From contig VHCW01000010.1 of NCBI GenBank assembly GCA_016871575.1, forward strand, positions 1 to 64,000: a DNA stretch of 64,000 bases, given 5' to 3'. This document shows, piece by piece, positions 6,712 through 9,399 of the stretch. The DNA comes from Verrucomicrobiota bacterium (GTDB lineage Bacteria; Verrucomicrobiota; Verrucomicrobiia; Palsa-1439). Each line of letters opens with the position of its first letter. Positions within the stretch are counted from its first letter, which is position 1. Position numbers and translations under genes: made by a program. Below the pieces are notes generated by a model. It had not been told where the DNA came from. It did no database searches and was given only the letters and a program-made list of their open reading frames with translations.

Positions 6712-9399
6712 ATGACATCCGCTCAAGTCCGCCAATCGTTTCTCGATTTCTTCCGCGAGAAACAGCACGCCATCGTTCCGTCGAGCAGCCTGCTGCCCGA
6801 CGCGCCGAACCTGCTGTTCACCAACGCGGGGATGAACCAGTTTGTGCCGATCTTCCTCGGCCAGACCAATTGCCCCTACAAGCCCGGTCGCGCCGCCGAC
6901 ACGCAGAAATGCATCCGCGCGGGTGGCAAGCACAACGACCTCGAAGACGTCGGCCTCGACACCTATCACCATACCTTCTTCGAGATGCTCGGCAACTGGA
7001 GCTTCGGCGATTACTTCAAAAAGGAAGCGATTGACTGGGCGTGGGAACTCGTCGTCGGGCGCTGGGGGTTCCCCAAGGATCGTATCTACGCCACGTACTT
7101 CGGCGGCGATGACAAAATCGCTCCTGACAACGAAGCGAAGGAGTTCTGGCTCCGTTATCTGCCCGGCGATCATGTCGTCCCCGGCAACCGCAAGGACAAC
7201 TTCTGGATGATGGGCGACACCGGCCCGTGTGGCCCGTGCAGCGAACTCCACGTTGACCTCACGCCCGCCGGCAACGGCGGCGCAAAGCTCGTCAACGCCG
7301 GCACACCGCAGTGCATTGAGATTTGGAACCTCGTCTTCATCCAATTCAATGCCAATCCCGACAGTTCGCTGACACCATTGCCGGCGAAACACGTTGACAC
7401 CGGCATGGGGTTCGAGCGCGCCTGTTCGATCATCCAGTGCACAAACGGTTTCAAGGACTTCAGCGGTCGTATCTCCAACTACGAAACCGACGTCTTCACG
7501 CCGATCTTCCGCGAGTTGGAGAAACTGTCCGGCAAGAAGTATGGCAGTACTTTGCCATCCGATCTGTCTGTGGCCGGTGGCGCACGCGTCCCTGCTTGCG
7601 CGGCTCCGAAGGAGCAAATCGCCATTGACATCGCGTTCCGCGTCATTGCCGACCACATCCGTTGCCTGAGCTTCGCCATTGCCGACGGTATCACGCCGTC
7701 GAACGAAGGCCGCGGCTATGTGCTGCGCCGCATCCTGCGCCGTGCTGTCCGCTACGGCAGAAACTTGGGTTTCCACGAGCCATTCTTCTACAAACTGGTG
7801 GATGTCGTGGCTGCCAACTTCGGCGATGTGTTTCCCGAACTCCGCAAGAACAAGCCGCGCGTTCAGAACACCCTCAAGGCCGAGGAAGAAAGCTTCAACC
7901 GGACGCTGGACCGCGGCATCGAGTTGTTCGAGGAAGTCGCCGGCGGGCTGAAGTCGAAAACCTTCCCGGCGACGGAAGCGTTCAAGCTCTACGACACTTA
8001 TGGTTTCCCGCTCGACCTGACGGAGTTGATGGCGCGCGAGCGCGGCCTGACCGTGGACACGGTGGGCGTCGAGAAGTTGATGGAGGAACAACGCCAGCGC
8101 GCGCGCGAAGACCACGAGAAGAAGAAGACGGTTGTCACGGTTGAGACGGAAGGATTGCAGGTGGAGCCGACGAAGTTCATCGGCTACGACAATCTCGAAG
8201 CGGAAGCCGTTGTTGTAGCCGCGAGCCTGCTCGCGGCCGACGATGCCAAGCCCGAAGAACCGCGAGCAGGCTCGCGGCTACAGGAGAAGGAATGGCAGAT
8301 CATCCTCGACAAGACGCCGTTCTACGCCGAGATGGGCGGCCAAGTCGGCGATACCGGTGTGATCGGCGACCTGCAGGTGCTCGACACGCAGAAGCAGGGC
8401 GAGATGACGGTCCATCGCGCCAAGCTTACGAGTGGTCGCGCGCCCGAAGTTGGGGAGGCGGTGCGCGTGGCAGTGGACGCCGAGCGTCGCGCCAACATCC
8501 AGCGTCATCACACGGCAACGCATCTGTTCCATTGGGCGTTGCACGAGGTTGTGAGCAAGGACGCGCGTCAACGCGGTTCGCTCGTCGCGCCGGACCGGTT
8601 CCGGTTTGACTTCAATTGTCCGGAGAAACTTTCCGATGCCCAGATCACCGAGATCGAACGGCTCGTGAATGAGCGGATCAAGGCCAACGAGCCGGTCTTC
8701 TGGACGGAGTTGCCGTTCGCTGAAGTGCAGAAACACACGGAGATCCGTCAGTTCTTCGGCGAGAAATACGGCGATGTCGTGCGCGTGCTCCAAGTCGGCG
8801 GGCACGGCGGCCAGTTCGACGGATTTTCGATGGAGTTGTGCGGCGGCTGCCACGTGCGCAACACGGGCGACATCGGCCTGTTCAAGATCATGCGCGAGTC
8901 GGCCATCGCCGCCGGGATCCGGCGCGCCGAGGGAGTGTGCGGGAAGTTCGCCGCCGAATTCATCGAACACCAGAAAGCGGCAGCAGCGGCAGAGGCGGAG
9001 AAGGCAAAGGCGTTTGAGCGGGAAAAGGAAGAGGGGAAAAGGAAGAAGGAAGAGGACGCCCAACGCGCTGTCGAAATTGCCGCGCGGTTGAAGACGGAAG
9101 GGCTGGTCGTTGAGACCCTCGGCACTGCGGATGCCAACTTGCTTCGCGCTGTTGTCGAGGCGTTGAAGCCCAAGCTGACGAGCGGCGTGGTGGTGCTCGG
9201 CGGCGTCAGTGAGGGCAAGGTGTCGCTGATTTGTTATGTGACGCCCGACCTGGTGAAACAAGGCAAACACGCCGGCAAGATTGTCGGCGAGGTTGCCAAA
9301 CAATGCGGCGGCGGCGGCGGCGGCCGCCCTGAACTGGCCACCGCCGGCGGCAAGCAACCAGAGAAGTTGACGGAAGCACTCGCGTCGGTGAGGTTTTAA
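6712..9399 (+). CDS. alaS: Alanine--tRNA ligase
   Basis: 895 residues, complete. The class II catalytic core begins with VRQSFLDFFREKQHAIVPSS and has TNAGMNQF, DDLEDVG-type and GMGFERACSIIQ segments. The editing domain carries HTATH (about 598-602) and CGGCH (about 708-712), the zinc-site residues that clear Ser/Gly-tRNA(Ala). The C-terminus has a charged coiled coil and the Gly-rich C-Ala domain. Two insertions relative to E. coli AlaRS stand out: about residues 278-301 and about 502-523. The second is encoded by a REP-like palindrome pair that stays in frame. The stop is 2 bases before serS. Confidence 0.97.
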   Translation: MTSAQVRQSFLDFFREKQHAIVPSSSLLPDAPNLLFTNAGMNQFVPIFLGQTNCPYKPGRAADTQKCIRAGGKHNDLEDVGLDTYHHTFFEMLGNWSFGDYFKKEAIDWAWELVVGRWGFPKDRIYATYFGGDDKIAPDNEAKEFWLRYLPGDHVVPGNRKDNFWMMGDTGPCGPCSELHVDLTPAGNGGAKLVNAGTPQCIEIWNLVFIQFNANPDSSLTPLPAKHVDTGMGFERACSIIQCTNGFKDFSGRISNYETDVFTPIFRELEKLSGKKYGSTLPSDLSVAGGARVPACAAPKEQIAIDIAFRVIADHIRCLSFAIADGITPSNEGRGYVLRRILRRAVRYGRNLGFHEPFFYKLVDVVAANFGDVFPELRKNKPRVQNTLKAEEESFNRTLDRGIELFEEVAGGLKSKTFPATEAFKLYDTYGFPLDLTELMARERGLTVDTVGVEKLMEEQRQRAREDHEKKKTVVTVETEGLQVEPTKFIGYDNLEAEAVVVAASLLAADDAKPEEPRAGSRLQEKEWQIILDKTPFYAEMGGQVGDTGVIGDLQVLDTQKQGEMTVHRAKLTSGRAPEVGEAVRVAVDAERRANIQRHHTATHLFHWALHEVVSKDARQRGSLVAPDRFRFDFNCPEKLSDAQITEIERLVNERIKANEPVFWTELPFAEVQKHTEIRQFFGEKYGDVVRVLQVGGHGGQFDGFSMELCGGCHVRNTGDIGLFKIMRESAIAAGIRRAEGVCGKFAAEFIEHQKAAAAAEAEKAKAFEREKEEGKRKKEEDAQRAVEIAARLKTEGLVVETLGTADANLLRAVVEALKPKLTSGVVVLGGVSEGKVSLICYVTPDLVKQGKHAGKIVGEVAKQCGGGGGGRPELATAGGKQPEKLTEALASVRF
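8215..8281. repeat. REP-like inverted pair (family B) inside alaS
   Basis: GTAG (8215-8218) plus hairpin CCGCGAGC-CT-GCTCGCGG (8219-8236) is followed by an inverted copy, hairpin 8260-8277 and CTAC 8278-8281. Both stems are perfect 8-bp palindromes. The alaS frame reads straight through, giving an Ala-rich loop next to IILDKTPFYAEMGGQVGD at the start of the editing region. Layout is the same as the intergenic palindrome pairs in this window. Confidence 0.85.

Follow-up and report, generated by a model that had tools for sequence, protein, structure and literature searches.

Bacterial transposable elements are expected to avoid essential genes and, to our knowledge, the transposition of RAYTs has never been well understood. 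The closest described relatives of the feature reported here are the REPINs—that is, two inverted REP hairpins with conserved ends and a variable spacer, present in many copies—which have been described as mainly extragenic (Bertels and Rainey, 2011; PMC3116915). Intragenic dimers of GTAG and CGTC REPs encoding 20–30 amino acids are described by Di Nocera (2013; PMC3733652), with the GTAG cases coming mostly from Opitutus terrae, itself a member of the Verrucomicrobiota and thus a phylum-level relative, and with tRNA synthetases among the host genes in other species. The RAYT and TIRYT genes of REPtrons and TIRtrons, as described in PMC3733652 and PMC6006769, combine HuH and Y..NP motifs, the NF047646 family, and inverted flanking hairpins, and stand alone. 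Rickettsia contains palindromic selfish DNA translated inside genes (Ogata et al., 2000, 2002, as cited in PMC10969869), the elements measuring about 100–150 bp and encoding one conserved peptide. Finally, inteins and the yeast WHO elements are selfish genes found at recurrent sites in essential genes and distributed patchily among relatives, with the WHO elements needing no protein splicing (PMC7282813).

The alanyl-tRNA synthetase (AlaRS) gene alaS lies at positions 6712–9399 on the forward strand of the window—the whole 64-kb stretch of DNA that was analyzed—from a 5.19-Mb draft genome, designated G000. It is one uninterrupted open frame of 895 amino acids with Pfam matches to tRNA-synt_2c (PF01411), tRNA_SAD (PF07973), and DHHA1 (PF02272), and is the single match in the genome. 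Included in this frame is a GTAG REP doublet, or REPIN, at 8214–8282 (forward strand; 69 nt with its terminal T and A), translated as approximately residues 502–524. The left REP (TGTAGCCGCGAGCCTGCTCGCGG; 8214–8236, forward strand), of which exact copies occur elsewhere in the genome, and the right REP, its inverted copy (CCGCGAGCAGGCTCGCGGCTACA; 8260–8282, reverse strand), are 23 nt each and 100% complementary, and are separated by a 23-nt spacer (8237–8259, forward strand) whose sequence is not that found in other copies. Both arms form GTAG-REP-type hairpins in their own right (GCCGCGAGC/GCTCGCGGC), with GTAG at the 5′ end of the imperfect palindrome GTAGCCGCGAGCCTGCTCGCGGC, and the inverted arrangement at short distance is that of a REPIN. 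Because copies are flanked by T before GTAG and by A after CTAC, the unit in alaS is taken as 69 nt, or 23 codons; its length is divisible by three, it contains no stop in the host frame, and it encodes a peptide of about 23 residues (VAASLLAADDAKPEEPRAGSRLQ). The doublet strand was calculated to fold at −58 kcal/mol, against a mean of −31.5 for shuffled sequences (z = −8.4), and the window contains four matches at up to three mismatches where 0.04 would be expected. The perfect arms, together with copy counts far above expectation and control, rule out a chance palindrome. A preliminary description of this DNA had placed a GTAG-headed inverted pair at 8215–8281, in frame within alaS just ahead of the editing domain; every part of this was borne out, with the coordinates being off by 1 bp at each end.

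The palindrome recurs throughout G000, with 25 copies at up to one mismatch and 33 matches to the core pattern at up to two mismatches, compared with none for the reversed pattern in either search. Outside G000 the family was found only in genomes of the same taxonomic family (f1), with 13 copies in G002, 12 in G006, and one each in G001 and G004, and none in 52 others. The copies in G000 comprise 11 doublets and five single REPs, each of which has a T preceding GTAG, an A following CTAC, or both, and the doublet unit, 69 nt in alaS, measures 75–76 nt in most other copies. Four or five of the 11 doublets lie in frame in likely genes, and about half in open frames; in-frame copies are therefore commoner than the preliminary statement that REP elements are almost always intergenic had implied. 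Besides alaS, doublets run in frame through a U32 peptidase gene (contig C18), a gene for a beta-helix/CBM_4_9 protein (C60), and a gene for a 725-amino-acid membrane protein (C74) that has no Pfam match at 1e-4 and whose sequence looks like that of a spermidine-synthase relative; another occupies the N-terminal end of a WbsX-like ORF (C47) with a Pfam match below the cut-off. In three loci of G006 and G002 (L218, L221, and L223), a single-REP form that is a full 26-nt palindrome (GTAGCCGCGAGCNNGCTCGCGGCTAC) was observed beside doublets of the same family.

The peptide encoded by the REPs depends on the frame and orientation in which they lie (VAASLLAA..PRAGSRLQ in alaS; ..CREEARSYS and CSREPARG.. 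elsewhere), and thus no conserved REP-coded peptide exists. In this respect, and in consisting of a 69-nt unit of two REPs read in various frames, the alaS REPIN differs from the Rickettsia elements described in PMC10969869; its host also falls in the Verrucomicrobiota, judging by the relatives recovered, and not in the Rickettsiales, and it does not belong among them. The parallel with those elements drawn in the preliminary description is apt as an analogy, both being palindromic selfish DNA translated inside genes, and not as a relationship; "exonisation" is also a loose word for it, as nothing is spliced. The family resembles the REPINs of Bertels and Rainey (PMC3116915) in its inverted hairpins, copy number, conserved ends, and variable spacer, and differs from them in the proportion of doublets in frame in genes and in having no linked RAYT at the loci examined: none of the nine Y1_Tnp loci in the draft contains the exact core of the GTAG family, and no RAYT was found beside the family's copies at the G006 and G002 loci examined. 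The GTAG-headed, in-frame intragenic REP dimers of Di Nocera (2013; PMC3733652) already cover the alaS doublet; in the passages covered here, alaS is not among the cases named, nor are transposases inside host genes reported.

Alignment of AlaRS with that of 33 other genomes showed residues ~506–522 to be absent in 32. The remaining genome (G008, locus L078) carries a comparably long loop there, but its DNA is unrelated and contains no palindrome. A native loop common to the relatives is thus ruled out, and so is the outcome that the preliminary description named as refuting, an identical loop of unrelated DNA in every relative; nor do all relatives carry the palindrome at this position. The doublet is a lineage-specific REPIN translated in a surface loop of AlaRS. 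At the DNA level, alaS is longer by 51 nt than in G001, which is of the same genus (..GCTGTCGTC/GAGGCGGTGTCACCA/GCGGAAGGCGAG.. in G001; ..GCCGTTGT/TGTAG...CTACA/GGAGAAGGAA.. here). The earlier estimate of a gain of about 22 residues is close to what the element spells, about 23, but the net gain over the nearest relatives is 16–17 residues, because about five or six codons of a native turn (EAVSP) are absent. Judging from the alignment, either the 69-nt unit would have replaced about 18 nt of this turn or a small deletion would have followed the insertion. An arrangement of two separate single REPs around a native linker was also considered, given that the spacer peptide DDAKPEE faintly resembles the linker SDKPGG of G004; the DNA alignment does not support it, and other copies share the doublet layout. 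In an AlphaFold2 (AF2) model of AlaRS, residues 510–523 (pLDDT <50) lie between strands at 496–506 and 527–532, so that the insert is predicted to be a disordered, enlarged beta-hairpin turn before the editing domain, in agreement with the loop position proposed earlier. With a mean pLDDT of 71.7, an input of 15 sequences, and poor prediction at residues 20–101, the model supports the position of the loop and not its detail.

The same gene contains a second translated REP. A single REP of another family (GTGGCGCACGCGTCCCTGCTTGCG; 7577–7600, forward strand), present in 10 copies in G000 at up to three mismatches against none in the control, lies in frame in a loop (q284–303) that is absent from relatives. 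This loop, AlaRS residues 284–303, is also the one that holds whole RAYTs in other genera. Other inserts in alaS were observed as well. In many genomes, the q414 loop before FAFKLYDTYG contains long non-RAYT inserts of 59–178 amino acids with unrelated sequences (L070, L072, L073, L075, L076, L208, and L213–L216), and a Pfam search with five of these (from G001, G013, G020, G028, and G029) matched no family. In two genera, inserts of 31–35 amino acids occur at q130–134, in the catalytic domain (L070 of G001 and L076 of G020). In L126, the ORF continues past the RAYT through several more translated palindromes (GSARVP/DACA-like, and ..AAGWKSALP..), which gives the impression of REPs accumulating at a single position.

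Whole RAYTs were found in frame in housekeeping genes, at first in alaS of G036 and G053, in which a complete Y1_Tnp/RAYT domain lies in one open frame with the synthetase, and then in many genomes. A class-wide search of 384 genomes gave 43 strong matches (E < 1e-48), all 43 in frames of at least 698 amino acids. Weaker RAYT relatives in the same search occur both in stand-alone frames of 160–310 amino acids and in long frames, and long frames are thus not a general artefact. Scanning GTDB genomes yielded 79 RAYT loci, all labelled as Verrucomicrobiota except for one labelled Kiritimatiellaeota and one labelled as an unclassified bacterium; as the two sets overlap (for example, L139 and G098 appear to be the same sequence), the counts of 43 and 79 are not additive. 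In 74 of these 79 loci the RAYT shares one open frame with alaS, recG, thrS, metH, carB, or priA, and the host was matched on both sides of 66 RAYT domains. The sites recur: two in alaS (q282–291 and q408–423), one in recG (between ..PLPLF and PHIIIGTHAL), one in thrS (between AESMFPPMEL and YYLKAMNCPHHH), and two in metH. Two RAYTs share a single alaS in three genes (L104, L085/L095, and L174), and more distant RAYTs were found in valS and in a BREX pglX. The flanks of the five non-embedded loci have no match to these hosts, and in four of the five an ATG is found 28–37 codons before the domain, outside the element in those inspected. Among the interrupted hosts seen, only a metH gene (L114) continues in a different frame downstream of the insert, which may reflect gene decay, a frameshift of recent origin, or an error in the assembly.

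The full element begins with CCGGGGAGC, followed by a hairpin (e.g., GCACGCG-TCC-CGCGTGC), a second hairpin (TTCCGGCGTC.CGCCGGAA), a RAYT of approximately 153 amino acids, and the mirror image of this order ending in GCTCCCCGG; its arms are translated as GSARVPRAxSGVSPE ... TPRRDAExSTRDACAP. An inverted match of at least 20 nt between the flanks is present in 95 of 115 RAYTs (median 53), and the HuH and Y..NP motifs characteristic of TnpA-REP proteins are each kept in 114 of 115 domains; matches to NCBIfam NF047646 were also found. These features are shared with REPtrons and TIRtrons as described in PMC3733652 and PMC6006769, whereas the clade described here lies in frame in housekeeping genes and generally lacks its own start codon, only 9 of the 110 embedded domains having an ATG within the 25 codons upstream. 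The hosts appear intact: the HHxxxH and CGGxH motifs of AlaRS and the GSGKT and DEQH motifs of RecG are invariant in the chimeras, and the interrupted recG and alaS, the two hosts checked, are single-copy (the other recG match being Mfd). In an AF2 model of the RecG chimera L159, the RAYT is folded at residues 401–536, with block pLDDT values mostly of 77–89, falling to ~54–65 around 455–465 and 490–510 and below 50 in the arms. The first fold search with an AF2 model recovered RecG and Mfd, which the host part would be expected to match, whereas none of the 50 matches listed was a transposase structure.

With respect to movement, a tree of 95 RAYT domains requires 21 changes of host site, compared with a minimum of 8 and with 51.8 for shuffled sites, showing that inheritance at a given site predominates but that RAYTs have repeatedly moved between sites. 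In L099 and L100, RAYTs that are 93% identical occupy two different alaS loops. Host and RAYT distances, compared to distinguish vertical descent from homing, correlate weakly, with rho values of 0.37–0.49 for recG, the alaS q414 site, and thrS, and of 0.18 for the alaS q284 site, and a few pairs have RAYTs far more similar than their hosts. Such a mixed pattern of sequence distances would fit spread of RAYTs into the same site, with homing being unproven.

The alaS feature is thus very probably a lineage-specific REPIN translated as a tolerated loop, the small form of a wider habit of in-frame RAYTs, and the overall interpretation of the preliminary description, a REP pair lying in frame in alaS, is supported. 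By analogy with IS200/IS605 and RAYT biochemistry, a RAYT, as a HuH tyrosine transposase recognizing the hairpins, would move the non-autonomous two-REP element as single-stranded DNA, and such an enzyme presumably mobilized the GTAG family. In this lineage only, the REPIN would have entered alaS at the beta-hairpin turn before the editing domain, where a stop-free unit that is a multiple of three could be translated as a flexible loop tolerated within a stable AlaRS; frame-breaking copies in a single-copy essential gene would be lost. The REPIN most likely does nothing for AlaRS. Whole RAYTs in the loops of alaS (two sites), recG, thrS, metH, and others would use the start codon of the host, be inherited at a site, and sometimes be moved to another, with the chimeras translated whole, the loops tolerant, and selection on the host keeping the frame. 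With moderate confidence, we therefore propose that a Verrucomicrobiota RAYT clade without a start codon consists of obligate in-frame guests—additional, unspliced domains that persist in loops of the single-copy proteins AlaRS, RecG, ThrRS, and MetH, are expressed only within the host protein, and spread between sites—with the alaS REPIN and the second REP as a transposase-free miniature of the same habit. Like inteins and WHO elements, these RAYTs are patchy guests at recurrent sites in essential genes, and the WHO elements, as selfish genes that occupy an essential locus without splicing, offer the closest parallel (PMC7282813); unlike inteins and WHO elements, the RAYTs have no Hint domain, carry a HuH single-strand nuclease instead of a homing endonuclease, and, as far as the open frames indicate, would be kept by the host protein.

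Among other explanations, it is unlikely that the AlaRS loop is useful or that the embedded RAYTs are domesticated domains serving the host protein. The dN/dS between embedded RAYTs is ~0.03–0.15, reflecting strong purifying selection, which along with the retained catalytic residues would fit a domesticated function, and RecG is itself a DNA enzyme. However, RAYT presence is patchy within genera: empty and filled recG occur in the same genus (G256 versus G098/G213/G281/G334; G123/G138/G382 versus G118/G267; G117/G127 versus G354), as do empty and filled alaS (G021 versus G248). In addition, the same RAYTs occur in proteins with nothing in common, the site changes number 21 against a minimum of 8, and the alaS peptide is unlike other REP-coded peptides.

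Intergenic REPs can slow ribosomes, protect RNA, or bind gyrase or IHF, and a hairpin kept for such a role in alaS mRNA or DNA, with the peptide as a by-product, would be consistent with the very high stability of the doublet and with REPs being known to act as RNA elements (PMC3733652). This explanation is nevertheless quite improbable, since the doublet in alaS is confined to one lineage, other copies lie in unrelated genes and between genes, and a mid-gene hairpin has no conserved position.

Removal or skipping of the stretch before the protein is finished—by an RNA intron, an intein, or ribosomal bypassing—would explain survival in single-copy genes, as some mobile elements in essential genes (inteins and group I/II introns) are indeed removed, but is very doubtful because all frames are open through the arms and the transposase, which removal would not need. 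Self-splicing introns (group I/II, IStron) were rejected, with no Rfam match in six loci, as were inteins, with no Hint or intein family among the matches of eight chimeric proteins to NCBIfam. Although the genomes are for the most part draft assemblies from metagenomes, an assembly or binning artefact has a negligible probability: the contig around the alaS insert spans 72 kb and its neighboring genes are intact, and dozens of independent assemblies have RAYTs embedded at the same sites. One of these, G248, consists of a single 4.7-Mb contig and has an alaS frame of 1197 amino acids.

Overall, short REP pairs and whole transposases lie inside the reading frames of single-copy housekeeping proteins, and many genera share the few loops concerned. 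No description of in-frame transposases in housekeeping genes was found in the open PMC text. If the chimeric proteins exist, they would represent an intein-like life without splicing, in which the guest is expressed for free and is costly to lose, since only a precise, frame-preserving loss would do. They would also make it possible to gauge the amount of foreign domain that an essential enzyme will accept and to test how RAYTs move. For annotation, many AlaRS, RecG, ThrRS, and MetH proteins of Verrucomicrobiota would carry a nuclease domain, whereas homology-based annotation names the host enzyme only. Two further fusions were observed in G000 itself, both in frame and with REP-like translated arms: a RAYT joined to the C-terminus of the D-tyrosyl-tRNA deacylase encoded by dtd (L039; G000:C68:12592), and another joined to the N-terminus of the trpF product (L038; G000:C33:39487).
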